Source: Centroberyx gerrardi
Taxonomy: Eukaryota > Chordata > Actinopteri > Beryciformes > Berycidae
Length of the DNA: 64,000 bases
Direction of reading: 5' to 3'
Assembly: GCF_048128805.1 (NCBI RefSeq)
Contig: NC_136019.1
Coordinates: 19,059,881-19,123,880 of the forward strand
The translations under genes were made by a program, and so were the position numbers. A model generated the notes under the pieces. It saw only the letters and a list, made by a program, of their open reading frames with translations, was not told the origin of the DNA and did not search any database. Within the stretch, counting starts at the first letter, position 1. Each line of letters starts with the position of its first letter. Positions 7,400 through 64,000 of the stretch are shown in pieces.

Positions 7400-7585
7400 A
7401 GGAAATGGAAACGGCGTCTGTGAAGGTCGAAGTCGTTTCTCCCCGGCCTCCTCTTGCGCATGTTCAGCCCACAAGGCACGCAAAACTGATACGGAGGGTC
7501 TGTAACAGTAAATACTGTATAACTGACTCTGACTGTGAACACATTTGCTGTAAATTTTGCCAACACAGTCATCCAGGGTCATCTC
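7400..7585. repeat. S100-array 3' block, first copy (orphan)
   Basis: It is nearly identical to blocks at about 9770-9925 and 15830-15985, which lie downstream of S100 copy 1 and of the S100 pseudogene (shared TTGTGCATGTTCAGCCCACA with variants, then GGAGGGTCTGTAACAGTAAA). Here no S100 gene precedes it, so it may be the tail of a lost earlier unit. Minus-strand open frames in all three copies are shared through duplication only. Confidence 0.75.
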
Positions 7586-8196
7586 TTTAATCTGAAAGTC
7601 ATAATCTGAAAATAACAGCTGGCCCCTGCACAGCTAGTTTGCTTTGCTTGATAAATATTAGCCCGGTACTAATAGAAGAATTTTCACAATACGAAGTCAC
7701 TTGACCCAATGAGTCAGCCAGTTTAAGAGTCCTAAAGAGTGTTGAAGGCTCCAGAAAGACACTCCTACAGTGATCTGAACAAAGTCATACCTGTCACTGT
7801 TCACCTGTAGAGTGACTGCATGCTTGAAAAAGGTGTTAACCACCATACTGCGACTGTTCCTTTCTCACGCTATCATACAAGCATGCAAAAGTTCAGCACA
7901 CTGTTGAACAAATGAATGCATTACATTATCTGACAAGGCCCCAACTGAATCTTCAGAATGCTAAAACATTTACACTCAATACTTCAAGTAAGATGCATTG
8001 CATCATGTAAAGTAAAGATGTAGCTATTGCAGAAATCCCACTTTGTAAGTGCGTGCTGTACTGCCAGGAACTTTTGCCCCACACCCAAGATGAAAAGCTT
8101 GGGAAATCCTGCAGTAATATAGTAGCGGAGTGTGGTAACTTTTAGAGTGGCTCCCATTGTGTTTGATGTGATCTGTTGCAGACAGAGCAGCGCTGC

Positions 8197-8969: not shown

Positions 8970-9598
8970 ATGGATAAGAAGTTACAGACATCCATGGCCC
9001 TCCTGCTGCAGACTTTTAAACAATACGCTTCAGCCGACGGCAATCCCAACACCCTGACCAAAAACGAGGTGAAGGAGCTGTTCAAGACGGAGCTGCCTGG
9101 ATTTCTCGAGGTACTGTACACCATAGGTGATGGGTAACTGTACTGACAAAGATGATAACTGCGCTTAATTGTACTCTAATTATTTGATGCACTGAATTTA
9201 GGCATATATTTAACCCCACACTTTAATTCACAACTTTGAAAATGAACAAAAGACTTGGCAATGCTTGTTTCATTGTGCTGATCAGACATAGGACTTATTC
9301 ATTCCCATTCCATTACGCAACTAAGTAAAACAGTTCCAGCGATTTGCATTTTGAACTGTTGAACACTTTGGAACAGTCCTGCCCCAACATCCTTATTCAG
9401 GGTGAGGTTTACCAATAGCATCCAATAGTACTCATGCTGTTTTGTTCCCCTGTGCAGGGTGGGAAGAACCAGTGTGCGGTGGACAAACTGCTGAGTAGTA
9501 TGGATTGTGACAGAGACAGTGAGGTCGACTTCACTGAGTTTATGTGCATGGTCACTGGTCTCACCTGCGCCTTCCACGACTGCGCTCAACACAAGTGA
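8970..9598 (+). CDS. S100P-like calcium-binding protein, copy 1
   Basis: Two coding exons, 8970-9110 and 9458-9598, join in phase 0 and encode 93 residues, a normal S100 length. S100 proteins are small dimeric EF-hand calcium sensors. The N-terminal S100-type loop (SADGNPNTLTKNE) is followed by KELF and ELPGFLE, and a GGKNQ hinge leads to a canonical second loop, DCDRDSEVDFTE, with acidic ligands at 1, 3, 5 and 12. Helix 4 ends in TCAFHDC. The ELPGFL and AVDKLL segments resemble human S100P, and the position beside kiaa0232/tbc1d14 matches human S100P. Five cysteines in the second half (hinge, calcium loop, helix 4) set it apart from copies 2 and 4. The intron falls between the EF hands, as in S100 genes generally. 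Confidence 0.93.
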
Positions 9599-9717: not shown

Positions 9718-9769
9718 ACAGTCTATCTACATGTATATGGTTGTTATGTATTATGTGACTCGGGTGTGA

Positions 9770-9925
9770 CGGTGGAAGTTGTTTCTCCCTGGCCTCCTCT
9801 TGTGCATGTTCAGCCCACAAGGCACGCAAAACTGATATGGAGGGTCTGTAACAGTAAATACTGTTTAACTGACTCTGACTGTATAAACAGATTTGCTTTA
9901 AGTTTTGCCAACACAGTCTCACAAC
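9770..9925. repeat. S100-array 3' block, second copy
   Basis: Near-identical to 7400-7585 and 15830-15985 (GCACGCAAAACTGATATGGA, then the TAACAGTAAATACTG motif). It follows S100 copy 1 directly and belongs to the duplicated unit. Non-coding. Confidence 0.8.
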
Positions 9926-10143: not shown

Positions 10144-10446
10144 TTCCTATAAATCAAAGTGACCTGACAGAATTCCTCTGGTGCACATTCCTTTCAATGA
10201 AAATGTTCTACCCAAAACCTCGAGACATTTCAGAAGTCACTCGACCCAGTTTAAGAGTCATAAAGAGCGTTAAAGGCTCCAGAAAGACACTACAGTCCTC
10301 TGAACAACTATACCTGTCTCTCTTCACCTGTAGAGTGACTGCATGCCACTACATGCCTATGGCTTGAAAAAGGTGTGAACCACCATACTGCGACTGTACC
10401 TTTCTCACGTTATCACTCATACAAGCCTGCAAAACGTCAGTGAAGA

Positions 10447-11060
10447 GTTGAGCTCTGTGGCCAGATAAACGCTCTCAACAGAACGGAGCGCTGCTACCAG
10501 GAAACTAGGCCAGGGGACCAGAGAGAACAGAAACATGCACACACGCACATGCATGTATACACACACACACACATGCTTTCACACACTCACTCACTTCCTA
10601 AGTTTTCATAGCTTTGCTTGTGGTTCATGCCCAAAGATACTCAGCAGTACACACAACCACCCACAGATGGAGTGACACTGTGTTAAAGTCATGTGTTAGT
10701 ACTGGGCAAATCTAGAGATCATACTCAAAGTGGCAACCAATGCAGTACAACTGTGTTGCATTTGAAACCAAGCTCACTTACATAGTTAGGATTTTTTTTT
10801 TTTGGGTTTTACATCAAAATAAATGAGTTGTAATCCAAATGATTACATGTCAGCCTCTGTTAAAGAGGGCAACTCCACTTGAATCAATACGAACAAAAAC
10901 ATCTCAAAACAAATGACTAATACTAACTAACCACATTTTGGTTTTGTGAGACTGAGGTTGTGTTGACACAATCGGAGCCACCACCCAAATCAAATACCTA
11001 AACTGATATTACCTGTTCCATACACCCATAGTTGTTTTTTTATCATTGAACCAAACCCAG
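10447..11060. repeat. Duplicated 5' flank of S100 copy 2
   Basis: Near-identical partner of 8197-8850, with a shorter (CA)n run and a poly-T tract replacing a G run. It places copy 2 in the same duplication lineage as copy 1 on its 5' side. Confidence 0.85.
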
Positions 11061-11075
11061 CTTTCACACAGCGGG

Positions 11076-11082
11076 TATAAAA
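11076..11082 (+). promoter_or_regulatory. TATA box, S100 copy 2
   Basis: TATAAAA in the same core promoter as copy 1. The flanking bases through to the start codon are essentially identical to copy 1. Confidence 0.8.
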
Positions 11083-11191
11083 GAAGTTGTCTCTCCTCTT
11101 CTGTTCACACGCTACACCTCTCTTACTGCCCTGTTGACCGCCATCAGCCTTCCATTTTCATCTTTACCGTTTTACCAACATCTCCAGCAAC

Positions 11192-12196
11192 ATGGATAAG
11201 AAGTTACAGACATCCATGGTCCTCCTGCTGCAGACTTTTAAACAATACGCTTCAGCCGACGGCAATCCCAACACCCTGACCAAAAACGAGGTGAAGGAGC
11301 TGTTCAAGACGGAGCTGCCTGGATTTCTCGAGGTACTGTACACCATAGGTGATGGGTAACTGTACTGACAAAGATGATAACTGCGCTTAATTGTACTCTA
11401 ATTATTTGATGCACTGAATTTCCTATGCATGTGCCTGCTCAATAGATAGCGCATTTCCACTGCCAGGGTTAGAGGCTTGATTCCTACTGGGGCTGAAAAT
11501 GCATGAACTCATGGTGCTTTGGACAAAAGCTTCAAGTGGCATATTGTTAAAGTCAAAATGAAAGATGAATTTTTCACCTTGTTTCTCCATATCATAACAC
11601 CTATTAAAAGTAGAACATTTTTATTTTCTTGTATTTTTATATCAAATCATTTCTTTAATTTCCTGAAATATTGTGTATTTTTAGTTTTTACTTCATCGTG
11701 TACCTGTAGGCGTACATAAAAATTCCAACCAGTAACAGATTTGGCCCCCTCCACCCCTCCCATCATATGAACCCTGCAACTTCACAACTTTGAAAGTGAC
11801 AGAGTGGCAACATGGTGCAGCGGTGCAGTTGTGGGTGTTCATTCCCAAAAACACAGTTTCCATGGTTGCGCCCCGATGGCTGGAATTTATTCATTTTGAA
11901 AAATCCAAAATTTGGACATCTGGAAAACTCAAGATTAGACACAAAGGATTTTAAACTGACGAACACTTTGGAACAGTCCTGCCCCAACATCCTGCTTCAA
12001 GGTTGAAGTTCACCAATAGCATCCAGTAGTACTCATGCTGTTTTGTTCCCCTGTGCAGGGTGGGAAGAACCAGGTTGAGGTGGACAAACTGATACAAGAT
12101 CTGGATGAGGATGGAGATTCTGAGGTCAACTTCAGCGAGTTTATGATCCTGATAACTGATATCACCTGCGCCTTCTATGAAATCGTGACTTCCTAG
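11192..12196 (+). CDS. S100P-like calcium-binding protein, copy 2 (mosaic gene)
   Basis: Exons 11192-11332 and 12059-12196 join in phase 0 and encode 92 residues. The first exon differs from copy 1 by one residue (Ala10 to Val). The second exon matches copy 4 through the hinge, GGKNQVEVDKLIQDL, the second calcium loop DEDGDSEVNFSE and FMILI, then diverges to end in CAFYEIVTS. Both EF-hand loops keep all calcium ligands. The intron matches copy 1 up to about 11421 (GATGCACTGAATTT) and copy 4 beyond it, apart from an extra block of about 360 bp containing a SINE. I infer that recombination or gene conversion inside the intron built a new gene from two array members. The protein should be a functional S100, expressed from a copy-1-type promoter. 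Confidence 0.93.
11437..11545 (+). mobile_element. tRNA-type fish SINE in copy 2 intron
   Basis: The segment has a B-box-like GGCTTGATTCC and a tail GTGCTTTGGACAAAAGCTTC, resembling the widespread fish SINE tail 'GCTTTGGATAAAAGCGTC'. It lies within about 360 bp that is present in the copy 2 intron and absent from the otherwise matching copy 4 intron. Confidence 0.6.
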
Positions 12197-12256
12197 GGCG
12201 GGGCCGACAGACCGCAGCTTGTTCTACAAAAAAATCCTGTTTTCCATCAATGCCTG

Positions 12257-12262
12257 AATAAA
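12257..12262 (+). promoter_or_regulatory. Polyadenylation signal, S100 copy 2
   Basis: AATAAA in the context TGCCTGAATAAAATG, 61 bases after the stop codon. The context matches copy 4. Confidence 0.8.
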
Positions 12263-12359
12263 ATGATTTATCTACATGTATATGGTTATGAATTATGTGA
12301 CTTGGGTAAAATGAGATAAGGTAAGATGAAACTTGAATGATCATCATATTCATCACAGT

Positions 12360-13690
12360 GAAATTGGATTGTTGCAGCAGGAAATGTTAATAGGTTATGG
12401 CAAAGAAAACAGACTATAAATAAGAATAAAGCAAGTCGCTGTTGTCGTGTGAAAACCTTGTAACTCTGGTCTGCATGGTGGTCAAGGTAAACAACATTTT
12501 CTTTGTTCCTGAAAAGTCTTTTTGGAGATTTTCACAACAAAATGGTGGATATATATATAACATTTTATATATAACACTAGAACATGTTGCAAAGAAATGT
12601 ATAAATGGAAAGTATGAAAAAAGTATAGATTACAACATGATGGGAGGGTGTGCAAATTAACAGCTGTGGAACAGACTGAGACAAAGAAACATTTGTGAAA
12701 ATTATATAAAATATACCAAAATATGAACTAAAAAATATCAATATATGTGCAATTTATAACAAATGAGAAGAATATAAGGATATGAAGTCTTTGCACGCTA
12801 CTGTGGTTGAGAATATGTAAATGCATGTATCAGTATGGGTGGCAGCAGGTAATGAAAAGTCACATTCCAGATGGAAGATGGCGTATTCTTCCAAATCATT
12901 TCAGAATAAGGAGCCACCGGTCAAAAAGTCTCATTCATGTTCAAACAGTCACTAGACTTCCTCTCTAGGTAGGGCAAGAAGCCCTGTTACAAATCAATCA
13001 AATCAGCAACAATCAATCAAGTCTTCTCGTTCTTTTCATATCTGGTGAAAACCTCGTAACTCCAGGGTTTTGGAAACGTCTCGTCCTTCACATCCAGGGG
13101 CTATTTCTAACTTGAGTAGGTGTTAAAGTCCTGGCAGAACCTGGCAACAAACCCTTGAATGGTGAAACCCACAACAGATCCAATAGAAAGCAATATTCCA
13201 GATGGAGCCTGTGTGTATTTGATGTTTGCACCGCTGTGCATGCACACCTAATTCGCCCGAGGGTGCCAGGCAGCCCAAAAACAACACTGGGATACGGAAA
13301 TTCAGAGACGTCGAAAGGGAAACAGGTAGTCCAGTAATCCCCTGATCGCAGGCACCAGGCTCCCTGTTAATCCACTGCTGTGATACTGAACTGTCTTTAG
13401 GTCTGTCTACCCACCAGAGAGCACTGTCCGAGTAACACACTTTCTCCAGCCGGGACAGTTGTGTAATAATTACAGAACAGCTATGCTGCCCTCTTGTGGC
13501 ACATACACTCCCCATTTCACATACAGAGTGCTGAATCTAAAGTGAATCTGATGGAGGCTCAAGTTCAGGTTTTCACGGGAAGGGTTCAAACCAGCGTGGC
13601 ATGGTAAGATGCAGAGGTTCAGGCAAGCAGGATGAGACGGATCCTCACCATCATCATGAGAATACAGCTTGATTTGAGTCGCAGGCTGCG
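12360..13690. repeat. Paralogous block A downstream of S100 copy 2
   Basis: This stretch matches 18350-18416 plus 23699-25465 at near identity. It lacks the 5.28-kb and 466-bp insertions of the other copy and so preserves both empty sites (around 12419-12422 and 13192-13199). An open frame on the minus strand (13123-13515) is shared with block B by recent duplication. I see no domain in it. The match ends near 13690, where LINE sequence begins. Confidence 0.85.
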
Positions 13691-15145
13691 CTTGTATGAA
13701 TTTTCAGATTTCTTATCTACTGTTGTATTGAACCATGATAGGATTATCCTTACTGGTGATTTAAAAAACACACTGACGACCCTTCTAATGGCTTTGCCAC
13801 TGATTTTTTAAAAGCCACTAAATCTTTTAATTTTGAACAGCATGAATCTGGCCCAACTCATAACCGTGGTCACACCTTGGATTTGGTTTTTACCCTTGGT
13901 TTGAGAGCATGTCATGCATTATATCTTTGTTTCTGATCACCAGTGTATCGTTTTTAATTGTCCATTCCTTGCTTCCACTAATGTTTTACTGCAAAGTGTG
14001 TGTTCTTGCATCTTTAATGAACAAAGTGTCCCCAAGTTCTGCACGTTGTTTGCACATTGTAGCACTTCCATGACTGAATTCTTCCACACCAGTGATCTGG
14101 TTAACTGTTTTAATTCACTTTGTTCATCTGTCCTAGACCTCATAGCCCCTCTCAAAACTAGATCCAAATCATCTACTAAAACACAACCCTGGATAAATGA
14201 TAGCATCCGCAGCTGTAAACGGGAATGTAGAAAAGCTGAACGGAGGTGGAAAAAATCTAGCCTTCAGGTCCACCATTTGTTTTTGAAAGATTTACTAACC
14301 ACTTATAACAATAAAGTTAAAGATGCAAGAACCTTTGACCTTTTCGCAACGCATCAACATAATCCTAGATTCTTATTCCAGACCATTAATCAACTTCAGT
14401 GCTGCTCCCCAATGAATCCAAGCACCATGCGAGAGATTCTGCGGGGAGCGCAATAAACCCCCCAAGGCATAGTAGACATATCATTAATAATACTAGTGCA
14501 GTGCCCGTTCGCCCCGCTGCTGCACAGAGCGCTGTTCGCTTGTTTATTCAAAGTTTATTAATATTGAACACGTCGTGTGTCCAAATTGCACCAAATCCGA
14601 CACTGCACGTCCTTGGGTCCCCAGCAATACACCCACCAAGTGTGAAGTCGATCGGACGAATGGTTCTCGAGATATGCGAAGGACACACATACAGACAGAG
14701 ATTCCTTGCTTTATAGTATGATGATGAACCAACATAAAGGATAGAGATAGCTTGCACAAGCATCCTGGGAGCAGATAATACAGGAGGAGGTTGGGGTGGT
14801 GGAAGGAATTTGCATCGACTTGGGTCAACAGCAGCGGCATGAATGAACGGCAGTGTGAGCTGGCAGATTATAAAGACCGCCTCATGTTGTTTGAATGTGA
14901 TTGGTGATGAGAGTCAGCTTGGATTGGACAACTGATAGTCAATTAGCTGATGGCGTGCACAACTTCAGTGTTCTGCCTGAACTAAAGCGATGCTTCATTA
15001 GTAAACCCAGTTGTTCCTGGTGTGTCAGCACCAAATATTTCTGACTGTGAGAAATTTGTATCCTTTTTTACTGACAAGGTGGAGTTAATCAGATCCACTA
15101 TTTCCTGCTCTGTCACATTTTCTGATAATAATTAATTGATATTAA
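13691..15145 (+). mobile_element. Degenerate non-LTR retrotransposon, endonuclease and linker region
   Basis: Translated + strand pieces show an apurinic-endonuclease C-terminal pattern (ILTGDF, then ESGPTHNRGHTLDL, then SDH). These are followed by the basic linker common in fish L2/CR1-type LINEs (LIAPLKTRSKSS, QPWINDSIRSCKREC, FLFQTINQL). Coding resumes at about 14990-15140 (ISDCEKFVSFFTDKVELIRS) after an interruption of about 0.5 kb. Frameshifts and stops make it non-functional. Confidence 0.75.
14489..14730. repeat. Repeat within the LINE interruption
   Basis: A segment with TAGTGCAGTGCCCGTTCGCC near its left side and ACAGACAGAGATTCCTTGCT near its right. It sits inside the DNA separating the two LINE pieces. 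I recognise it as a fish-type interspersed repeat but cannot assign a superfamily. Confidence 0.45.
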
Positions 15146-15410
15146 TTGTCCACCACTGGACACCCGGAGTCAGTTTTCACTCATTATAAGACATTACAAA
15201 AACATTTGAAAGTTTCTTGGTATCTGGAGAAAAAAATAAGAAAAGTTTCTCGTTATGAGATAAGTTGGTATGTCGTAATAACGAGAAAAGATGTCATTAT
15301 AACGTGAAAATATCTTGTTATAACGTTAACAAGATACTGTTATATTACTGTTAGATACTTTTTTTTCACTGTGACATCAATACACTGCCCTAACCTTTGG
15401 CTATGAGCTT

Positions 15411-15800
15411 AAGGGTAAATTTTGGTGTCGTGAGACTGAGGTTGTGTTGCCACAATCGGAGCCACCACCCAAATCAAACAGCTAAACTGGTATTAACCTG
15501 ACTGTTTGGAAATAATTTAACATCCATAGTTTTTTTTTATCATTGAATCAAACAGCTTTCACACAGCGGGTATAAAAGGAGTTGTCCTTTTATCTAAAAA
15601 AAATCTTGGTGAACTTCAGTCAGGTTAAGTTTATGGCCATGATCGGCTTTCTCACCTGCGCCTTCCACGACAGAGCTCACGGCAAGTGAGCAGTACGACC
15701 TCATCGACCAACGGACCGCAGCTTGTTTTTGTTAGTACAGGGAATAAAAACATTAAAAAATGGTTTTCCAACAATGGCTGAACAGTCTATCTACATGTAT
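15411..15800 (+). pseudogene. S100 deletion pseudogene (array member 3)
   Basis: The 5' flank and core promoter (TATAAAAGG at 15571) match the other S100 copies. Some 35 bases further on, the sequence jumps to the last third of exon 2: AACTTCAG, a 6-base in-frame insertion, then TTTATGGCC through CACCTGCGCCTTCCACGA to a stop at 15687-15689. Exon 1, the intron, the first EF hand and most of the second calcium loop are gone. The 3' UTR matches copy 1, but the polyadenylation hexamer is deleted (GCCTGAATAAAACAG has become GGCTGAACAG). It cannot encode an S100 protein. Any transcript could encode at most a C-terminal peptide of about 18 residues. Confidence 0.88.
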
Positions 15801-15829
15801 ATGGTTGTTATGTATTATGTGACTCGGTG

Positions 15830-15985
15830 TGAAGGTGGAAGTTGTTTCTCCCCGGCCTCCTCTTGTGCATGTTCAGCCCACAAGGCACGCAAAACTGATA
15901 TGGAGGGTCTGTAACAGTAAATACTGTTTAACTGACTCTGACTGTATAAACAGATTTGCTTTAAGTTTTGCCAACACAGTCTCAC
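15830..15985. repeat. S100-array 3' block, third copy
   Basis: Near-identical to 9770-9925 and following the pseudogene in the same order, so the pseudogene arose by deletion inside a full duplicated unit and not by retroposition. Confidence 0.8.
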
Positions 15986-16059
15986 AACATTTTGTGAAAT
16001 AATCATGAACTCTGAAACGCAGATTACATGTGGTGGACACAAATAATGTGAAGATCGGA

Positions 16060-16595
16060 AGAGATGGTGTTCGACCCCAAAGCCATTGGAGACCACTCAC
16101 CAGTGGTTATCCACGACCAGAACATAGCCCAGGTTGACTCTTACAGATACCTGGGCATACACATTGACAATAAACTGACATGGAGTGTTCAGGTAGAAAA
16201 TGTCTGCACCAGGGTCCAACAGCAGCTACACTTCCTTCGTAGGCTGAGGGTCTTTGGCGTCAACCAGAAAGTGTTGCTCCTCTTCTGCCATGCTGTAGTT
16301 GAGAGCATCCTGCGATATGGCATCTCAGCCTGGTTCGGCAACCTCAGTGTACAGCTGAAAGCCCAGATTACCCGCCTCACACAGAGGGAGTCAGGCAGCA
16401 TCCCACACTCCAGGCTGTCTTTGATGAAACAATCATCAGACAGGCCCAGAAGATTCTTTCAGACCCCACCCATGTCCTCCACCCTGAGTACCAGCTTCGA
16501 CCCTCAGGCAAATGCTTCAGAGTGCCCCAGTGCAGGCTCAACCGGTTTAAGAACTCCTTTGTCCCCCTGTCCATCAAAGCCCTAAATAACACCCA
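16060..16595 (+). mobile_element. LINE reverse transcriptase 3' fragment
   Basis: The + strand frame reads VDSYRYLGIHIDNKLTWS, then LHFLRRLRVFGVNQKVLLLF, SILRYGISAWFGN. This is the C-terminal RT region of fish non-LTR elements. After about 16390 the frame shifts and continues as TIIRQAQKILSDPTHVLHP. It is 5'-truncated and frame-disrupted, and distinct from the element at 13691-15145. Confidence 0.78.
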
Positions 16596-16597
16596 AG

Positions 16598-16975
16598 TCA
16601 GGGTCTGAGTCCTGAATCCAAAGCTTTTAAACTTGTAGCAGAGGCATGCATGTAGACAGAATCTCCGTAATCAAGAACTGAAAGAAAAGTTGTTCGAACC
16701 AGTTCTTTTCTAGCCTTAGGAGAGAAACACACTTTGTTCCTAAAATAAAAGCCAATTCTTAATTTAAGTTTCTTCACCAGGGTCTCAATGTGTTTTGAAT
16801 AATTTAACTTGTTGTCAATCCAGATCCCCAGATATTTATATGAGTTGACTAGCTCTATTGGTTGATCATTCAATATTACAATTTGATTTTGACATGAATT
16901 CTCAGACTTTGCATTTGAGAAAACCATGTACTTTGTCTTGTCAGCGTTTAACACAAGCTTGAGATGATATAAATT
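16598..16975 (-). mobile_element. LINE reverse transcriptase fragment, opposite strand
   Basis: The minus strand reads LNADKTKYMVFSNAKS, SYKYLGIWIDNKLNYSKH, RIGFYFRNKVCFSPKARKEL, VLDYGDSVYMHAS. This is the C-terminal RT of another LINE family with a well-preserved frame of 118 residues. It abuts the previous fragment in opposite orientation. Both lie between the pseudogene unit and S100 copy 4. Confidence 0.78.
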
Positions 16976-17446
16976 CTCCTGAATGACATCAAATGCTAAC
17001 TGTGCATCCTACATCCTACTGTGCATAACTACGTGCCTATGGCTTGAAAAAGGTTTTAACCACCACACTGCGACTGCTCCTTTCTCACGCTATCACACAC
17101 ACATACAAGCATGTGAAACATAAAAAAAAGTTCAGCACAGGGTTGAACAAATGAATACATTACATTATCTGACAAGGTACCCCAATTGAATCTTCAGAGT
17201 GCTAAAACATTTACATTTAATTACTTTAAGTAACATGCATCGCATCATGTAAAGTGAAGATGCAGCTATTGTAGAAATCCCACTTTTCAAGTCTGTGCTG
17301 TACTGCCAGTATCTTGAGTGCAGGTTGTGTTGACACAATTGGAGCCACCACCAAGACCAAATACCTAAACTGGTATTACCCGTTTGTCATTTAACAACCG
17401 TTTTTTTTTAAAATCATTGAACCAAACCCAGCTTTCACACAGCGGG

Positions 17447-17537: not shown

Positions 17538-18194
17538 ATGGGCAGGATATCGCAAAGCATGATGTCCCTGATTGAGATTTTTAATGAATACGCTGCAGCC
17601 GAAGGCAATGCCAACACCCTGACCAAAACCGAGGTGAAGAAGCTGTTCGAGGAGGAAATCCCTACATATCTCACGGTACTGTAACCATTTGGGATGGGTA
17701 ACTGACAAAGATGATAACTGTGCTTAATTGTACTCGAATTATTTGATGCACTGAATTTCCTATGCATGTGCCTGCTCAATAGATAGAGCACATGGTGCAG
17801 CGGTGCATTTGTGGGTGTTCATTCCCAAAAACCCAGTTTCCTTTTCCTAACACTCCATGGTTGCATCCTGACGGCTGGAATTTATTCATTTTGAAAAATC
17901 CAAAATTTGGAAATTTGGAAAACTCAAGATTAGACACAAAGTATTTTGAACTGATGAACACTTTGGAACAGTCCTGCCCCAACATCCTGCTTCAAGGTTG
18001 AAGTTCACCAATAGCATCCAGTAGTACTCATGCTGTTTTGTTCCCCTGTGCAGGGTGGGAAGAACCAGGTTGAGGTGGACAAACTGATACAAGATCTGGA
18101 TGAGGATGGAGATTCTGAGGTCAACTTCAGCGAGTTTATGATCCTGATATCTAATCTCTCTTGCAACTTCTATGAAATGATGACCGCATCCTAG
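17538..18194 (+). CDS. S100P-like calcium-binding protein, copy 4
   Basis: Exons 17538-17675 and 18054-18194 join in phase 0 and encode 92 residues. The N-terminal half is diverged from copies 1 and 2 (MGRISQSMMSLIEIFNEYA, loop AAEGNANTLTKTE, then VKKLFEEEIPTYLT). The hinge and second loop are identical to copy 2 (DEDGDSEVNFSE), and the C-terminus is NFYEMMTAS. Both EF loops keep their calcium ligands. The start is supported by its match in position to copies 1 and 2 and by an AACC preceding the ATG. As the donor-like partner of the 3' half of copy 2, it gives a direct contrast between exchanged and unexchanged exons. Confidence 0.93.
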
Positions 18195-23698: not shown

Positions 23699-25465
23699 CA
23701 ATAAGAATAAAGCAAGTCGCTGTTGTGTGAAAACCTTGTAACTCTGGTCTGCATGGTGGTCAAGGTAAACAACATTTTCTTTGTTCCTGAAAAGTAATTT
23801 TGGAGATTTTTTTTTAGAGGTTTTCACAACAAAATGGTGGATATATATATATAAAATATTATATATAACACTAGAACATGTTGAGAAGAAATGTATAAAT
23901 GGAAAGTATGAAAAAAGTATAGATTACAACATTGTGAGGGTGTGCAAATTAACAGCTGTGGAACAGACTGAGACAAAGAAACATTTGTGAAAATTATATA
24001 AAATATACCAAAATATGAACTAAAAAATATCAATATAGATGCAATTTATAACAAATGAGAAGACTATAAGGATATGAAGGAAACAAACTAGATTATGCTT
24101 CGTCTTTGCACGCTACTGTGGTTGAGAATATGTAAATGCATGTATCAGTATGGGTGGCAGCAGGTAATGAAAAGTCACATTCCAGATGGAAGATGGCGTA
24201 TTCTTCCAAATCATTTCAGAATAAGGAGCCACCGGTCAATAAGTCTCATTCATGTTCAAACAGTCACTAGACTTCCTCTCTAGGTAGGGCAAGAAGCCCT
24301 GTTACAAATCAAGGTAAAAGTGCACAGTGCACTTTGTCTTCTCGTTTTTTTCATATCTGGTGAAAACCTCGTAACTCCAGGGTTTTGGAAACGTCTCGTC
24401 CTTCACATCCAGGGGCTATTTCTAACTTGAGTAGGTGTTAAAGTCCTGGCAGAACCTGGCAACAAACCCTTGAATGGTGAAACCCACAACAGATCCAGTA
24501 GAAAGCAATATTCCGAGCCTGTCCTCTCCCAAAACACGACCCCATAGGTCGTTTGTAAAAGCAGCTTATTACGACCTATAGTTACGTTTTAAAGTTAAGC
24601 GACCTCTAGCGGTCGTGTAAATAACGACAATGTGCTACGTTGCTCTGCGTCCACGTCACGTGACTGTCAAGTTTCTCTCTCAACATTGAAATAGCACGGT
24701 GGAAAGTAAGGGTGTTGTGGTCGGGGATGGCGGACGGGCGTATACGTTTGCCTTCGATGTCGGCGACCGGGGTTCGATTCCCAGTGTTTCCAAATTTAAC
24801 CATGACCAAACCATTTTCCTAACCTTAACCAAGTTGTTTTAGTTGCCTAACCATAACCATAACCCAAGTTGCTTTCATTTCATGTATTTTTGTGAGATTA
24901 CGTTGGAAACGCTCCTGTGGGTCATATTAGAGGGTAGGAACAAATGACCTATGTGGTCGTATGGGTTGGAGGACTTGTTGAATATTCCAGATGGAGCCTG
25001 TGTGTATTTGATGTTTGCACCGCTGTGCATGCACACCTAATTCGCCCGAGGGTGCCAGGCAGCCCAAAAACAACACTGGGATACGGAAATTCAGAGACGT
25101 CGAAAGGGAAACAGGTAGTCCAGTAATCCCCTGATCGCAGGCACCAGGCTCCCTGTTAATCCACTGCTGTGATACTGAACTGTCTTTAGGTCTGTCTACC
25201 CACCAGAGAGCACTGTCCGAGTAACACACTTTCTCCAGCCGGGACAGTTGTGTAATAATTACAGAACAGCTATGCTGCCCTCTTGTGGCACATACACTCC
25301 CCATTTCACATACAGAGTGCTGAATCTAAAGTGAATCTGATGGAGGCTCAAGTTCAGGTTTTCACGGGAAGGGTTCAAACCAGCGTGGCATGGTAAGATG
25401 CAGAGGTTCAGGCAAGCAGGATGAGACGGATCCTCACCTATCATGAGGATACAGCTTGATTTGAG
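23699..25465. repeat. Paralogous block B downstream of S100 copy 4
   Basis: Near-identical continuation of block A (12419-13690) after the 5.28-kb insertion, itself interrupted by the 466-bp element. Beyond about 25465 the sequence (GCGCTGCGCCGTCTGAGGCC) no longer matches block A. It contains the same minus-strand open frame as block A, altered at its end by the insertion. Confidence 0.85.
24515..24980. mobile_element. 466-bp TIR element with 8-bp target duplication and tRNA-like core
   Basis: AATATTCC flanks both ends (24507-24514, 24981-24988), while block A has it once (13192-13199), so the insertion is directly demonstrated. Just inside the ends, GTCCTCTCCCAAAACACGAC aligns with the reverse complement of the right side (GTCCTCCAACCCATACGACC), and both continue ATAGGTC and TTTGT. 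The 8-bp duplication fits hAT. The interior has TGGCGGACGGG (24728-24738) and an exact B box GGTTCGATTCC (24771-24781), a tRNA-like Pol III promoter pair. No coding capacity. Confidence 0.8.
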
Positions 25466-25571
25466 TCACAGGCCGCGCTGCGCCGTCTGAGGCCTCGCAG
25501 GGCTGTTTGGGAAACGTGGCTGGCCTGTAATCGGCTTGCAAGGTCATTAAGCTCACACTCTCCTCTCTCTC

Positions 25572-47700: not shown

Positions 47701-50700
47701 CAATGATTGGGCTACAGGGCTCATTTGAACCATACTATTATTAACACATACATTTGTTCATTTGCACCATGCTATTATTATTAATGCATTTTAATCAAGT
47801 TTTTCTCTCATTGTGGCTTTAGGTATTATGAAGCCTTTCCTCCTTTGTCAGAGAAACCTGTTTGTCTCCAAGAGATCATGACGGTGTGGAACAAGGCGAA
47901 GGCCTGCGCATACTCCAGTTCATCGTCCTCTGCAGCCCCACAGACCAGCACAGACACCTCCTCCCCAAAAGATTGCAACAGTGAGGGTGAGGCTGCGAAG
48001 GAGAGAAACCTTGAGGCATGTGGTCCCACCACTACTGCAACCAACGAGAGAGGCCAGCAACGACGCAGCAAGAAGGAGAAAGAAAACCGATACCATGGTG
48101 GTGCAACAGCGGAGGACAGATCTGCCGTCCACTCAAAGAGACAGACAAGGCACAGATCCGAGGGCAAGTACCGGCCCCGATCCTGGTCTTCTGGCTCTAG
48201 CGAGGCGGGCTCAAGCTCAAGCGGGAACCAAGGTGACTCAAAATCGTCCAGCAGCAAGGCAGTTAGAATCAGGCACAAGTCCAGGGAGGCTGGAAAGAGT
48301 AAGAGAGGGCGCAACAGCGGGCAGGTGAAGCTGGCTCTAAAGGTTATCGACAAAGAGGAGCGAAGGAATACAGGAGGGAGCAGCAGCAGTGCCACTGGAG
48401 GCCCTGCCAAACCACAGCTTTACAAAAAGGGGAAGAGACCGCTGAAGGAGATTCGTAAAGATCCAGGCTGGGTGGAAGCAAAAGAGTCCGGAGTTGAGGC
48501 CAGAAACAAAAAGGAGTACATGGAGGAGCCACTTTGGTACACTGAGCCCATTACAGAGTATTTTGTACCTTTCAGCAGCAGACAAAGCAAGCTGGAAACA
48601 AAATATCGAAGCAAGGTGGACTCTCCTGATGGCTTTGCCTTGTCCACTGACATGGAGAGGTTACCTGAGAGAATACAGGGAATCTGCATTGCCAATGATA
48701 ACTACCAGAGGGCGTACCTAGCAGCAGGCTCATTTGTGGATGGACACTTTGTGGAAGGGCCTGGCGAAGCAGAAGATGAAGCTGCTGAACTCACTGGGAC
48801 CTCAAGCTGCCCTCAGCCAGAGGATAGTAGAGATTTAGATGACAAGCATCTGTCTGAATTCACTCACTTCTATGAAGTTGATATTTATCAATCCATATTG
48901 GATACTAGTGCCTCAGACTCGATACAAGAGAGTCGGATCTTGAGCATGATTCGACAGAAAAGCAAAGAGCAAAGAGACCTTGAGGCAGAATGTTGTTTAG
49001 TGTTAGATGGCTTTGAGCGGGAAGGGGAAAGTGCAATAAGGGCAGACTCGCAGGAAGCTTCGGGATCTGTTGGATTCTTAATGCAGGATCTTGAAAACAT
49101 GGCTCAAGTCTGGGGATGTTATTCACCCTCTAGTTCAGAAGATATAGATGGAGAAAGCTTTGTAGGAGACTCTCCCATTCGGCTCTCCCCCCTTCTTGAC
49201 AGTGTTTCGTTCACCCTGAGCAAGCTATCTGGAAATCTGGAGGAGACACATCTTCCTGAAGCCACCAGTGAACCACCTGGTTTGAACTCGTCCTGCTTCT
49301 CTCTTTTTGAGCTGCAGTATGATAGCCCCACTTTACCTTTTCCCCGCGACTCACTCACCGTTGGTCACGAAAACAACACAGATTCAAGTAGCTGTCTCGA
49401 TCCACATTCTAATAAACAGTCTCGTTTGCTAATATGGACCAAAAATAGTGCCTTTGACGAAACTGAACACTGTTCTAACCTTTCAACGCGAACTTGCAGT
49501 CCGTGGTCGCATTCGGAGGAGACACGTTCAGACAATGAGCAAGGAAATATTCAAACAGAGGATCCTGCTCAAATTGGCAATGAAGAGATTGATTGTATAA
49601 TCCCTCCTCTCTCTGGTACCTATCTAGAGGATGAAATCCTGGATTTTTTGCAGGAAGACACTGGCCGTCAGTGTGAGGAGGCCAATGTTAGCACGGCATC
49701 CAATCAGACCTTCACCAAGAAATCTAAATTGGAGTCCATTTGTGGCATAGCATTGGAAGAGGATGAGAGCAAACAGTACAACACTGGCATGTTTTCGGAC
49801 AACACAAACCAACAGAGTGATGATTACAGCTCAGGGATAATAAAGGACATTTGGACTGCAATTGGAGATGGCGATTCTGTCATGTCAAGGCAAGGAGCAG
49901 AAAAGTCAACTGAGGGGCTATTCTCAGACGAGTCAAGCAGTTACCGCTGCAGCTGTCTTGAGGTGCAGGCTAAAGGAGGTCCAATTCAGGGACCTCAGAA
50001 AAAGGCAGTGCAGCGGTCAGAGTATCACCTTTGGGAAGGCAAGAAAGAAGAGCAGGGCTTAGCCAAAAACAAGCTCTCCAAGATAGATGGTGCTGGGGAC
50101 TACATGACTCCGTCCAAGCCCTGGGACATGAACCCTGACAAGGAGAGTACATCATTCATCCTAGGAGGGGTGTATGGAGAGTTAAAGACGCTAAGCGGTG
50201 ATAAGAACTGGGCCGTTGTGCCGCCCAGTGAAACGCAAGGTAGCCTGCTACAGTGTGCCGCTGCAGCCGCATCTGCCTCCAGCTCAGACATGCTTACCAT
50301 CACCGGCACAGATGTGTTCATGAACACCGGCAGCTGCTTTGCCCCTGGGCATAGGCCCCTGTGGAGGCCTCTTGTTTCCTTTGGGCAGAGTGACCAGGCC
50401 ATTAGAGCAGGTGGAGACGGATTGAATAAGGGATTTTCTTTCATCTTCCATGAAGATTTACTTGGATCCTACGGAGGCTTGCACAGTGAGGAGCAAGGTT
50501 TAGAATACCCGTTTGCGTCCTTCAACCTGAACAATCCCTTCTCTCAAGTCCTCCATGTCGAGTGTTCTTTTGAGCCTGAGGACATGGCTTCATTCAGCCC
50601 AGGGTTCAAACCCAAATCTATACTCTGCTCTGACTCTGAGAATGAAGCCTTCCACCCACGAATATATGGCATCAACCGGACGCAGTATAGGGCCATCCGC

Positions 50701-52572
50701 ATTTCCCCCAGGACTCATTTCCGACCAATATCGGCCTCAGAGTTGTCTCCTGGTGGGGGAAGTGATTCAGAGGCCGAGTCCGAGAAAGAGGAGATGAGTT
50801 TTCCCGTCCTGGCGCCGGTGGACGTCTTTGATGATCCTCAGGCAGACCTCAAACCTCTGGAGGAGGATGCAGAATGTGAGGGCCCTTATTATGGGAAGTC
50901 AGAACTGGAATCTGGTAAATTCTTACCCAGATTAAAGAAGTCTGGCATGGAGAAGAGTGCCCAGACCTCTCTGGATTCACAGGAGGGCTCCAGTACCCTC
51001 CTGCCAATTGCTGAGCAAGAGATTTGCTTAGACTGCGAAAAGGCGGCAACCGCATCGACTGCAGACGGGCCGGTGGACGTCTCAGTCGACAAGATTCAAG
51101 AGGAGGAATCTTCAGGAGAAAAGGAGACCTGCTTATGTGCACCAGCAGGTCAGATCCCCAAGTATGGGATTGCTTATGACTTTGTTGGAGATGTGCCGGA
51201 GGTGAGAATTAATTAAAAATTGGCATTCTGATTGTGGTGTGTTCAGTGTGCAAGAGCATTGAGCAAAAATATAACCATGCAGTATTTCATGGTGTTTAGC
51301 ATCAGCTGTAAAATGGGTTCCGCCTCTCGCCTCTGAAAATGAAGTCTCTCAGTCTGTTTTCTGAAAGACACGCTAATCACTTCTCTTTTTTTGTCGTGTT
51401 TAGTTCCCTCTGTTGAACATAAGTGGACAGGGAGGAACTGGCAACCAGCAAGATGAGTGCTGGTGGCAGAACACACTCTGTTCCCCCCTTTTCCCTGGAT
51501 CTCAATGTACAGGTAAACATGCACATAAGCATATTTGAATATCTCTCCAAAAACACATTTTACGTCATATTCACCATTCACCATTTTATTCAGTGTACTT
51601 TTCTTAAACACATCAACTTGTAGCTTGTTAGTATGTTGCTCATCAAATCAGTCAGTATATGTTTCTGTCATTTAGCTTCTGTCATGAAATCAGTCAGTGC
51701 AATCTAGGAGGTGATCAGTCTTGGCAGATTTGTTCTAAGTGTTAAAGGGGCATTATGTAACACAGGACTTGTCGACCTCTGTCTGTGGCCAGTAGGAATT
51801 GCAACAACAGTTTTTTCCCAAAACAGAGTACGGGCTGGAAAGTGAGTTTTGAAAGCCAGAAATCTCAGCACTTGTCCGAGTAATTTTTGAGTCATTAGTA
51901 TTGATCAATAACCCTGTCAGCCCCCTGCAGATATAATATGGTAATTTTGTGTTGTGGGGCAGTAAAAAATATCACTTATTGCACTTTTAAGACAAATTGG
52001 CATGTAGATGTTTGTTCTGAGGCGTCACTTAAAACTAATAATCCACTACATTTTCATATAAATAGATGTCCATTTTGCTTCTCTCTATCACTGATTGATA
52101 GTACACTATACTGATTCAACCTACAGTATATCCAGTTCATAAAAGGTTTTACATTTGCTGTTTTAAACACCTGGTGTAGGGTAGATCTTTCCTGGGGAAA
52201 AATCCTCTGGTGCAGAGGAAGTGATGTGTTTTACTTTTCTGTTTTGAATAAATAGGAGAAGAACTGGGTTAGCATGAGCAGTAATAATGCAGTAAAAATG
52301 GAACTAAACAGTTATCACATTGTTTTATAGTCTCAGAACAGCCCATGCTTGTTTGTTTGGGGGTGTGGCAGATGCTGTTGTACTGGTGACACTTCTGCAA
52401 AGTGATCGCTTGGAAATGCAGTGCAAAACACCACAGTAATGACCGCTTATCACCAAAGATATCCGAATTATTTTAAAAAATGTAGTTGCGGATTATAACT
52501 TTGACTGTTTCCTTGTGCAACAATCTCACCATTTTGCTTTATGTTTCTGTCCAGGGAGCAGCAACATTTGAA
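44716..52572 (+). CDS. KIAA0232 orthologue, seven coding exons
   Basis: Coding exons are 44716-44952, 45413-45553, 47396-47465, 47582-47666, 47823-51201, 51404-51512 and 52556-52572. All introns are GT..AG with consistent phases, giving 1345 residues (human about 1395). The N-terminus (MRP..., then GPVQSWLGQELEKCGIDAMI) and the stretch through DNDIFLGWEKG-like, SKKKGGTDLSLEEMKKQAAV, VEELCSKLKD and YYEAFPPLSEKPVCLQEIMT match vertebrate KIAA0232. Exon 5 of the list (3379 nt) encodes a Ser/acidic-rich, mostly disordered middle with a basic, Ser-rich segment at about 190-330. The C-terminal part has QDECWWQNTLCSPLFPGSQC. The protein has no established biochemical role; it is large, mainly disordered and conserved at both ends. 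The last codons (GSSNI then stop) follow from phase 1 joining and are the least certain part. Confidence 0.92.
45554..47395 (+). other. kiaa0232 intron between second and third coding exons
   Basis: Ordinary intron sequence with no recognised transposon or alternative exon. The donor is GAA/GTAAGC and the acceptor CTGTGCAG. Confidence 0.6.
51743..51995. repeat. Probable MITE in kiaa0232 intron
   Basis: The ends TTAAAGGGGCATTATGTAAC and the complement of CACTTATTGCACTTTTAA are loosely inverted, in the style of fish 'GGGGCATTATGTAAC' elements. The match is short and family assignment is tentative. Confidence 0.4.
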
Positions 52573-62250: not shown

Positions 62251-63817
62251 GCCGTGGTTGGTGCTAGAGTGAGAACTGAGAACGCGCTGTCTCTCGGAGC
62301 GAGATCAAAAATGAATGATTCGTAATTGATATGTTATTCGATAGCCTAATTTTTATACAGGTTAGGTAATATTCATACTGGTTTAAATAAACAATTTGAT
62401 ACAACTTTTTCTCGAGGTTCCACAATTTTGTCGTCTGACCAAAATCTGAAGTATTTCCAAACAGGGCTTTTTAGATTGCTCGGAGGGGGTTGTGAACTCT
62501 CTGCTATCATTACCACACGGTTGTTATTGAATTATTCGGTCGTTTCAGCTTGACCTACATTTCATTTTCAATCAATGAAAGTGACGTTGTGTGACTTCTG
62601 TCCGTCATGTAGTGCATTCAGTGCAGCGGCCCAGGCCCACGCGAGAACTTGCGAGGCAGACAGCCGCGGTAGTGCTGCTTTTGTTTTTTTTTCACAATCG
62701 AATATTAATTTTCACAATCGAATGTTTTTTTTTACAATTCGAATATATAATCGAATTTAGAATATTCGTTGACAGCCCTACTGTGGGAATGTGTTGTCTA
62801 AAAGAGGTCATGGTCTATCAAGTACAGTTTCTGTACAGTCCCCGGTACATAGATTAAAAACAAAGGGGAAGGATGCAACTGAAAAGAAGGTGAAGGCAGG
62901 AATTGTTTTTTTCTAAATTTGAGAAAAGGTTTGTGGGAGTTGTGTGAAAGTTGTCAATATTCGTATGTATTCATCAAGTTGAATTTCCCTGTTCCATGTC
63001 CTATCCAAGGTGTGTCTGGAGGAGCCATAATGGAGAACGGCTCAGTAGTGAAAGACCAGACGGCCACGACACTGCCCGCCCCTGACCTCCACAACCACAC
63101 CGACCACCAGCGCCATGATGAGCACCATGAACCCAGCACGAGCCCCTGCAGCCAGCCTGTCCTGCCCAGCTACAAGCCGTCCTGCTCCCCTACGCCCATC
63201 TACTACAGCAGCCCCCAGAAGAGCCAAGCAGACCTGGATCAGGACAGCCACAGCATGGCCTCCCAGGACTCGGGCATCCCAACCCTGGAGATCAACCATC
63301 CGGAGCCCCTCCTCCACGGCCCCCAGCGCCCGGGGGACGGAGGCGGAGGTCACAACTCTCCAGCAACGCTGCCTCTGGACGAGCCCGCCGACAGCAACGC
63401 CATCCGCAAGTCCTCCACCTTCCCCCGCAGCGGCTACGACTCGATCCGCCTCTTCAGTCCCGTCCCCAGGTCGTCCGTCGCCATGGGGATGGGCGTGGGG
63501 GGCGGAGCCTTGAACCGCAGCGACGACATCTCGGTGTGCAGCGTGTCGAGCATGAGCACCGAGCTGTCGGCCACGCTTTCGGTCTCCAACGAGGACATCT
63601 TGGATTTCATGGTGACCTCCGACTCCAGCGCCATCGTCACCTTGGAGACCGACGACAGCGGCGCCGCCCACTTCTCAGACGTGACGCTGTCGTCGACGCC
63701 GGGAGACCCGAGGGACTTCTGGAGCCCCATGCGGCGGCGTCCAGGTTCGGGTGTCGCGCATCAGGAAGAAGACAGCAGACAAAAGAGACTGGGACCACTG
63801 GCCAGCTTCTTCAACAG
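58040..63817 (+). CDS. TBC1D14 orthologue, N-terminal part (continues beyond window)
   Basis: The large exon 63010-63817 (acceptor CTATCCAAG, donor CAACAG/GTAACT) reads, from the internal Met at 63030, into QDSGIPTLEI, RKSSTFPRSGYDS, SDDISVCSVSS, ELSATLSVSNEDILD, SSAIVTLE and LGPLASFFNR. These are in the order and spacing of the human TBC1D14 N-terminus. The upstream exon 58040-58088 (MANTTQDTQDRRGSQC, donor GTG/GTAGGC, phase 1) joins 63010 in frame and adds 23 residues before Met 63030; otherwise translation starts at 63030. The TBC Rab-GAP domain lies downstream of the window. TBC1D14 is a RAB11-binding regulator of recycling-endosome traffic and autophagosome formation. The exon is GC-rich, unlike its flanking introns. 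Confidence 0.88.
58089..61560 (+). other. tbc1d14 first intron, transposon-poor part
   Basis: The sequence is AT-rich with no splice-consistent exon. The 115-residue open frame at 59131-59478 has no domain-like pattern and no plausible splice partners, so I treat it as chance. TAGGGATGGAAATGATC near 61076 may be a MITE end without a partner. Confidence 0.5.
61569..61843. mobile_element. 275-bp hAT-like MITE
   Basis: The ends AGGGTGTCCGCAAGT and the complement of the right end (GGGGTGTCTGCAGGT) match with four differences. The flanks GCCACACA (61561-61568) and ACCACACA (61844-61851) form an 8-bp target duplication with one mismatch. The interior has repeated TTAAGAC/AAGACCT motifs. It lies in the first intron of tbc1d14. 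Confidence 0.7.
61950..62780. mobile_element. 831-bp hAT-like element with perfect 8-bp target duplication
   Basis: CTGTGGGA flanks both ends exactly (61942-61949 and 62781-62788). The termini are TAGGGCTGTCAAA on the left and the complement of TTGACAGCCCTA on the right, followed by TTCGATTAT/ATAATCGAAT motifs on both sides. The interior has (CT)n at 62213-62248 and no transposase. hAT superfamily is inferred from the 8-bp duplication and TAGGG ends. Confidence 0.88.
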
Positions 63818-64000
63818 GTAACTTCAACTATGGCTTTGAGTAACTGTCTTAGCTGATCGCATCTTATTTACATGGATGTTTAGCTTGAGTGAAACTGGAA
63901 TGCATGTTTCAGTTCTCTTTCTCGGGCATTGTGCCATGTTGACGTTATATTTACTATAAATCCGAAAAAACATTCCCATCAGCCTCCTAGTGGTAATTAC
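63818..64000 (+). other. Start of tbc1d14 intron after the first large coding exon
   Basis: Intronic sequence follows the donor at 63818. No further exon is visible before the window ends. Confidence 0.7.

Follow-up and report, generated by a model that had tools for sequence, protein, structure and literature searches.

A mosaic gene in a tandem S100 array of Centroberyx gerrardi, probably produced by ectopic gene conversion

Introduction

A window of 64,000 nucleotides from the genome of Centroberyx gerrardi (NC_136019.1, positions 19,059,881 to 19,123,880; coordinates below are counted from the first letter of this whole stretch) contains three intact two-exon S100 genes in tandem on the forward strand, copies 1, 2 and 4, together with a remnant, copy 3. 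The question raised by this locus is how copy 2 came to combine a first coding exon of the copy 1 type, encoding the N-terminal EF hand (EF1), with a second coding exon of the copy 4 type, encoding the C-terminal EF hand (EF2). An earlier interpretation made from the letters of the window (the sequence-only reading) had ascribed this combination to a crossover or conversion in the intron. The comparisons presented here confirm that copy 2 is a mosaic with a copy-1-like 5' half and a copy-4-like 3' half, and they make it probable that copy 2 arose as the sister of copy 4 and that ectopic gene conversion from copy 1 has recently replaced its promoter, its first exon and the 89 bases at the start of its intron.

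Results and discussion

Mosaic structure of copy 2

Donor and acceptor sequences are the same in copies 1, 2 and 4, whose open frames comprise 93, 92 and 92 residues, respectively, and a pattern scan located a TATAAAAG box and an AATAAA signal in each of them. The parts of the array to which the analysis refers are listed below.

8970..9110, + strand: coding exon 1 of copy 1 (EF1); open frame, donor GTACTG, PF01023 match in the genome search
9199..9319, strand not given: block in the copy 1 intron, not in copies 2 and 4; a dispersed repeat by its genome matches
9458..9598, + strand: coding exon 2 of copy 1 (EF2, tail, stop); acceptor TGTGCAG, open frame
10448..10787, + strand: upstream patch copied between copies 1 and 2, from their alignment
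10788..11025, + strand: diverged stretch separating the two patches, from the same alignment
11026..11421, + strand: main patch, attributed to copy 1 (TATA region, 5' leader, EF1 exon, intron start), from the same alignment
11076..11083, + strand: TATAAAAG box of copy 2
11192..11332, + strand: coding exon 1 of copy 2 (EF1), copy 1 type; 47 codons, PF01023
11422..12310, + strand: the half of copy 2 that resembles copy 4 (intron, EF2 exon, 3' untranslated region), from informative sites
11545..12000, + strand, approximate ends: dispersed repeat in the copy 2 intron, from genome matches and re-alignment to fetched loci
11961..12154, + strand: 194-base run identical in copies 2 and 4, covering most of the EF2 exon, from a shuffle test
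12059..12196, + strand: coding exon 2 of copy 2 (EF2), copy 4 type; 45 codons plus TAG
12257..12262, + strand: AATAAA signal of copy 2
15399..15827, + strand: copy 3 remnant, in which the final portion of exon 2 is fused to a TATA-containing promoter, without EF1 and without most of the EF2 loop
17538..17675, + strand: coding exon 1 of copy 4 (EF1); open frame, PF01023 match in the genome search
18054..18194, + strand: coding exon 2 of copy 4 (EF2); splice site and open frame

Copies 1 and 2 were aligned over 976 columns, which hold 52 difference events, and copies 1, 2 and 4 over 824 ungapped columns scored site by site. Between 11026 and 11421 copies 1 and 2 differ once in 396 columns. The near match to copy 1 that the sequence-only reading had described for the promoter, exon 1 and about the first 90 intron bases was thus borne out, with 89 shared intron bases (11333-11421) and an alanine/valine change in helix I as the sole nonsynonymous difference in the 47 codons of exon 1. 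When these 52 events were shuffled 20,000 times, no 396-column window came out equally clean; the window width was picked after the tract was known. A longest-run test (6 of 20,000 shuffles) caught the distal patch and not the main one, and the 396-column count was therefore used for the latter. The promoter match extends further upstream, but not continuously as had been described: the 341 columns of 10448-10787 contain 2 events, one inside a CA repeat, whereas 49 events fall in the 239 columns of 10788-11025. This succession of clean, diverged and clean sequence indicates that DNA was copied in two patches.

The informative sites change allegiance along the gene. Across the promoter and leader (11022-11192), copies 1 and 2 are united by 11 sites and copies 2 and 4 by none, with one three-way site; the corresponding counts are 39 and 1 in the exon 1 columns and 5 and 0 at the start of the intron, whereas over 11422-12310 copies 2 and 4 share 68 sites and copies 1 and 2 share 15. 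The main tract is flanked by divergence on both sides, by the 10788-11025 stretch on the left and by copy-4-like sequence on the right. The breakpoint optimum falls at 11399-11447 (maximum chi-square 85.9, not reached in 20,000 shuffles; 139 informative sites from 11022 on, 70 uniting copies 1 and 2 and 69 uniting copies 2 and 4), in agreement with the sharp switch of nearest relative that had been expected at about 11340-11450 if recombination had occurred. Protein trees computed per exon group copies 1 and 2 on EF1 (86% bootstrap) and copies 2 and 4 on EF2 (97%).

That copy 2 follows copy 4 from about 11421 onwards holds for the site counts but not throughout, because approximately 357 bases of the copy 2 intron (11453-11809) are absent from copy 4, and the tail (12155-12195) is unlike copy 4 and sides with copy 1 at six sites. 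From 11810 to 12422, a similarity that runs past the gene, copies 2 and 4 differ by 43 events in 613 columns, and the second half of copy 2 looks like a sister of copy 4 and not a fresh copy of it. Their 194-base identical run (11961-12154), equalled in none of 20,000 shuffles, suggests further exchange between these two copies in the EF2 exon. The calcium sites of copy 2 are indeed of different paralogue types; since copy 2 is copy-4-like as far as 12422 and carries intron sequence that copy 4 lacks, its EF2 exon need not be derived from copy 4, as had been claimed, and copies 2 and 4 may have exchanged part of exon 2 later on.

Intron repeats and the edge of the tract

The edge at 11422 is the point at which the copy 1 intron changes to an unrelated repeat. 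This copy 1 block (9199-9319) recurs in at least three further places in the genome, matching at 90-92% across 94-121 bases (40 candidates scored), and differs from the intron repeat of copies 2 and 4. The latter, an abundant dispersed repeat to which approximately 11545-12000 of copy 2 belongs, is shortened in copy 4 (17790-17995), and copy 1 shows its 3' end only (9348-9399). Because the edge coincides with the non-homologous copy 1 block, it need not be the exchange point, which substitutions alone bracket to 11399-11447. Conversion tracts tend to stop at non-homology, and the edge is a natural one for conversion without fixing where the exchange took place.

An insertion of the repeat shared by copies 2 and 4 and lacking in copy 1 was considered as proof of their common descent and rejected, as copy 1 retains the 3' end of the repeat, which therefore seems older than the split of the copies.

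Direction, mechanism and age of the exchange

In the history that we consider probable, copy 2 would have originated as a sister of copy 4, and a break or nick in it would have been repaired from copy 1 as the donor by ectopic (non-allelic) gene conversion. The repair would have replaced the core promoter, leader, EF1 exon and intron start (11026-11421), with the second patch (10448-10787) replaced separately or discontinuously, and would have ended near 11422, where the introns turn non-homologous. The product would be a 92-residue S100 protein, presumably expressed, with an N-terminal half of the copy 1 type and a C-terminal half of the copy 4 type. The proposed donor, copy 1, is present in the array.

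Ectopic gene conversion as the mechanism would account for the two patches as well as for the retained parents. We infer the direction, from copy 1 to copy 2, from distances to copy 4. Inside the patch copies 2 and 1 are equally far from copy 4, with 103 and 102 of 142 exon 1 columns identical, respectively, and 76 of 81 columns in each case at the intron start. Outside the patch copy 2 is the closer, at the end of the intron (111/113 against 105/112 for copy 1) as well as in the exon 2 columns (125/135 against 97/138), a pattern which argues that copy 1 wrote over copy 2. With copy 2 as the donor, the patch would be predicted to be as close to copy 4 as the rest of copy 2, which was not seen. 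The left flank (10951-11021) also leans to copy 4, which copy 2 matches at 59 of 71 positions while it matches copy 1 at 54 of 71, 12 sites uniting copies 2 and 4 and 7 uniting copies 1 and 2.

The near-identity of copies 1 and 2 covers noncoding DNA (promoter, leader, intron) in addition to coding sequence, which argues for recency and not protein constraint, and it is younger than the similarity of copies 2 and 4 (1 difference in 396 columns against 43 events in 613). With 2 substitutions across the 737 columns of both patches, and if a rate of 5e-9 to 1e-8 substitutions per site per year is assumed, the exchange would date to roughly 0.1-0.3 million years ago.

Several points weigh against this history. 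The direction is judged solely from copies within this one array; the copy 4 signal in the left flank is weak, and comparison with copy 3 does not settle the matter there (85/97 identical to copy 1, 74/87 to copy 2 and 72/98 to copy 4). The identity of copies 2 and 4 over 11961-12154 suggests that the 3' side was also homogenised, which makes the closeness of these copies a weaker yardstick of inheritance. Furthermore, nothing in copy 4 corresponds to the upstream sequence 10448-10924, so that the ancestor of copy 2 was not copy-4-like throughout.

Short, patchy, near-identical tracts that end at non-homology while the parents are retained are typical of ectopic gene conversion. Copy 2 shows all of these features and no difference in kind from such conversion among other tandem paralogues; the kind of event is well known, ordinary as recombination, and the location is new.

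Alternative explanations

A different starting point, in which copy 2 arose by duplication of copy 1 and later had its 3' half replaced by that of copy 4, is unlikely but deserves consideration, as DNA like that at 10448-10924 is present in copy 1 and missing from copy 4, and the 194-base run identical to copy 4 spans most of the EF2 exon. The 3' divergence between copies 2 and 4 nevertheless looks older than the 5' divergence between copies 1 and 2, so that a later exchange between copies 1 and 2 would be needed even then, and the approximately 357 intron bases missing in copy 4 also speak against the replacement, though copy 4 could have since lost them.

The crossover half of the sequence-only reading was not supported, whereas a conversion ending in the intron was, and with it the new pairing of EF1 and EF2 under a copy 1 promoter. 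Although unequal crossing-over between copies 1 and 4 would explain a single sharp switch within the intron, we regard it as very improbable: one event keeping both parents gives a hybrid with copy 4 at its 5' end and copy 1 at its 3' end, whereas both parents coexist here with a hybrid of the opposite arrangement, the copy-1-like DNA is broken into two patches by a diverged stretch, and the recurring block before 10448 is just 79.5% alike (7718-7896 compared with 10246-10440). Near-identical tandem units are difficult to assemble, and a collapsed or misjoined unit could imitate a mosaic, but we give such an artefact equally little credence. The window has no N, and copy 2 has private DNA in its diverged promoter stretch, its intron sequence and the length of its microsatellite. 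Moreover, in three genome searches (40 candidates scored in each) the S100 parts were found on contig C23 only, that of the window, the other matches being repeats, and a second haplotype copy is unlikely. The overwriting of a sister of copy 4 by copy 1 thus remains the reading that we prefer.

Identity of the array genes

Exon 1 of copy 2 matches PF01023 with an E-value of 9e-16 (57.6 bits, cut-off 22), and copies 1, 2 and 4 all score above the cut-off in the genome search. Their translations show a canonical C-terminal EF loop of 12 residues, acidic at positions 1, 3, 5 and 12 (DEDGDSEVNFSE in copies 2 and 4, DCDRDSEVDFTE in copy 1), while the EF-hand Pfam models matched below their cut-offs (25.1 of 30 and 21.7 of 25.4). 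Donor and acceptor positions place the intron between the two EF hands in all three copies, the same layout as that of teleost S100 genes, which are reported to encode each EF hand in a coding exon of its own, two in all (PMC2266712).

Among the best 60 of 281 solved-structure matches of the copy 2 protein, the highest-ranked is an S100P-annexin chimera whose two domains score 77 bits, and the second is a fusion in which two S100A4 domains score about 42 bits each; the best single-domain matches are the S100-P chains 2mjw and 1j55 (about 83 bits), with S100B at 70. The identity of these copies to the S100P peptide is just 39-45%. In protein trees copies 1, 2 and 4 form a group at 89, 91 and 96% (96% on both exons), and its attachment to S100P is unsupported. 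The trees covered 11 of the 14 other S100 loci (hits over 24 bits), with a truncated first exon in one of them (L055); those left out had no hits (L061), the second exon only (L060) or weak hits for both exons (L049, by choice).

Downstream of the array lies an exon of a neighbouring gene.

47785..51216, + strand: exon of a DUF4603 gene (PF15376, 2064 bits)

We take DUF4603 to be the KIAA0232 family. Of the 68 TBC-domain matches in the genome, two are located about 35 kb past the end of the window (C23:19158864-19161013), each of them weak (30.5 and 28.5 bits, respectively) and the second interrupted by a stop. In the rabbit, S100P, KIAA0232 and TBC1D14 are reported together in one interval (PMC12224565). 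By sequence and neighbours, the array genes are likely S100P orthologues. An open frame of 312 residues at 62883-63821 has no Pfam match and, by its position, may be the start of the gene with the TBC matches.

Divergence of the first exon

Exon 1 differs between copies 1 and 4 at 40 of 142 columns, compared with 17 of 223 in the flanking noncoding sequence (Fisher 2e-7). The exon 1 dN/dS of this pair is 7.9 by likelihood (nominal p 0.0066) and 3.05 by counting. It was one of nine likelihood tests, three of which, sharing most of their data, had a nominal p below 0.05, the others being exon 1 of copies 2 and 4 (0.0082) and both exons of copies 1 and 4 (0.021). After correction for nine tests the p of 0.0066 becomes about 0.06, and a Fisher test of nonsynonymous against synonymous changes in exon 1, on rounded counts, gives 0.065; the dN/dS result is fragile. 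In addition, conversion evening out the noncoding DNA could yield part of the contrast between exon and noncoding sequence without selection.

Exon 2 was considered as the accelerated exon and rejected, with a dN/dS between copies 1 and 4 of 1.12 by counting and 1.9 by likelihood (p 0.27). Its synonymous divergence in this pair is 0.48, far above that of the nearby intron end (7/112), pointing to a mosaic history.

Exons that evolve at an accelerated rate are known from tandem arrays of venom genes, and introns are conserved in such arrays. Accelerated evolution has been reported for a snake small-serum-protein array (PMC6609765), with which the present locus shares a first exon more diverged between copies 1 and 4 than the flanking noncoding DNA; it differs in that support here is nominal and comes from one exon pair of 46 codons, with no significant excess in exon 2. 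According to a 2008 survey, teleost S100P is always a singleton, and no positive selection was found in the S100 groups it tested, published dN/dS values being 0.05-0.24; that survey compared orthologues whereas our dN/dS values compare paralogues, so that the contrast is no more than suggestive. There are precedents for S100 genes that are fast-evolving or duplicated, given lineage-specific S100 duplications in pufferfish, probably via whole-genome duplication (PMC5072561), and S100Z as the fastest protein on the gibbon branch (PMC8664490). A broader view, in which the S100P locus would be a diversifying array where selection drives change in the EF-hand exons and conversion reassorts EF1 and EF2 into new calcium-sensor combinations under shared promoters, is put forward here as a speculation that we think doubtful.

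Other features of the window

Blocks of flanking sequence recur at 7419-7570, 9765-9918 and 15828-15981, and 7822-8073 pairs with 17042-17315. The 3'-flank blocks at 9765-9918 and 15828-15981 have an identical run of 143 bases in common. The first of the three, at 7419-7570, lies upstream of copy 1 with no S100 exon match beside it and is perhaps the trace of a lost S100 copy. Between copies 3 and 4, the open frames at 16052-17008 resemble the remains of a reverse-transcriptase retrotransposon, a label that we assume; PF09004 matches 16052-16585, and 16598-17008 has no Pfam match. Outside the S100 genes, a duplicated stretch (12419-13692 and 23700-25479) consists of two pieces, 91% identical over 834 columns and 98.8% over 501. 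Upstream of the array, 1463-2979 contains an immunoglobulin V-set exon followed by a frame with a stretch that resembles a membrane anchor by eye.

Function and significance

According to the translations, both paralogue types of each calcium site retain the binding residues, so that the combination of EF1 and EF2 in copy 2 does not imply a new function. The simplest expectation is that copy 2 would encode an ordinary calcium-responsive S100 protein and, because it has the core promoter of copy 1, would be regulated like copy 1. Fish s100p has been listed among immune genes responding in cod (PMC10706248) and tied to cell proliferation in infected turbot (PMC6365611).

The open-licence literature searched, partly at the level of titles and opening lines of abstracts, held no described conversion between S100 genes, which is no proof of absence. 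Conversion has been raised as a possibility for S100 genes of reptiles and birds that are unplaced (PMC5826337), passages of PMC8664490 tie it to another gene, and a word search found no 'conversion' in the main text of two papers on zebrafish S100 genes (PMC12047837, PMC13044992). Among the open-licence papers listed for S100P, fish and tandem duplication, the 2008 survey was by title the sole one on fish genes.

If the array genes are truly S100P, a gene regarded as a singleton in teleosts can expand and swap exons in some lineages, and would then offer a natural test of whether an S100 protein tolerates exchange of its two EF hands without loss of function. The copy number and the fast first exon make this locus worth attention in related fish.
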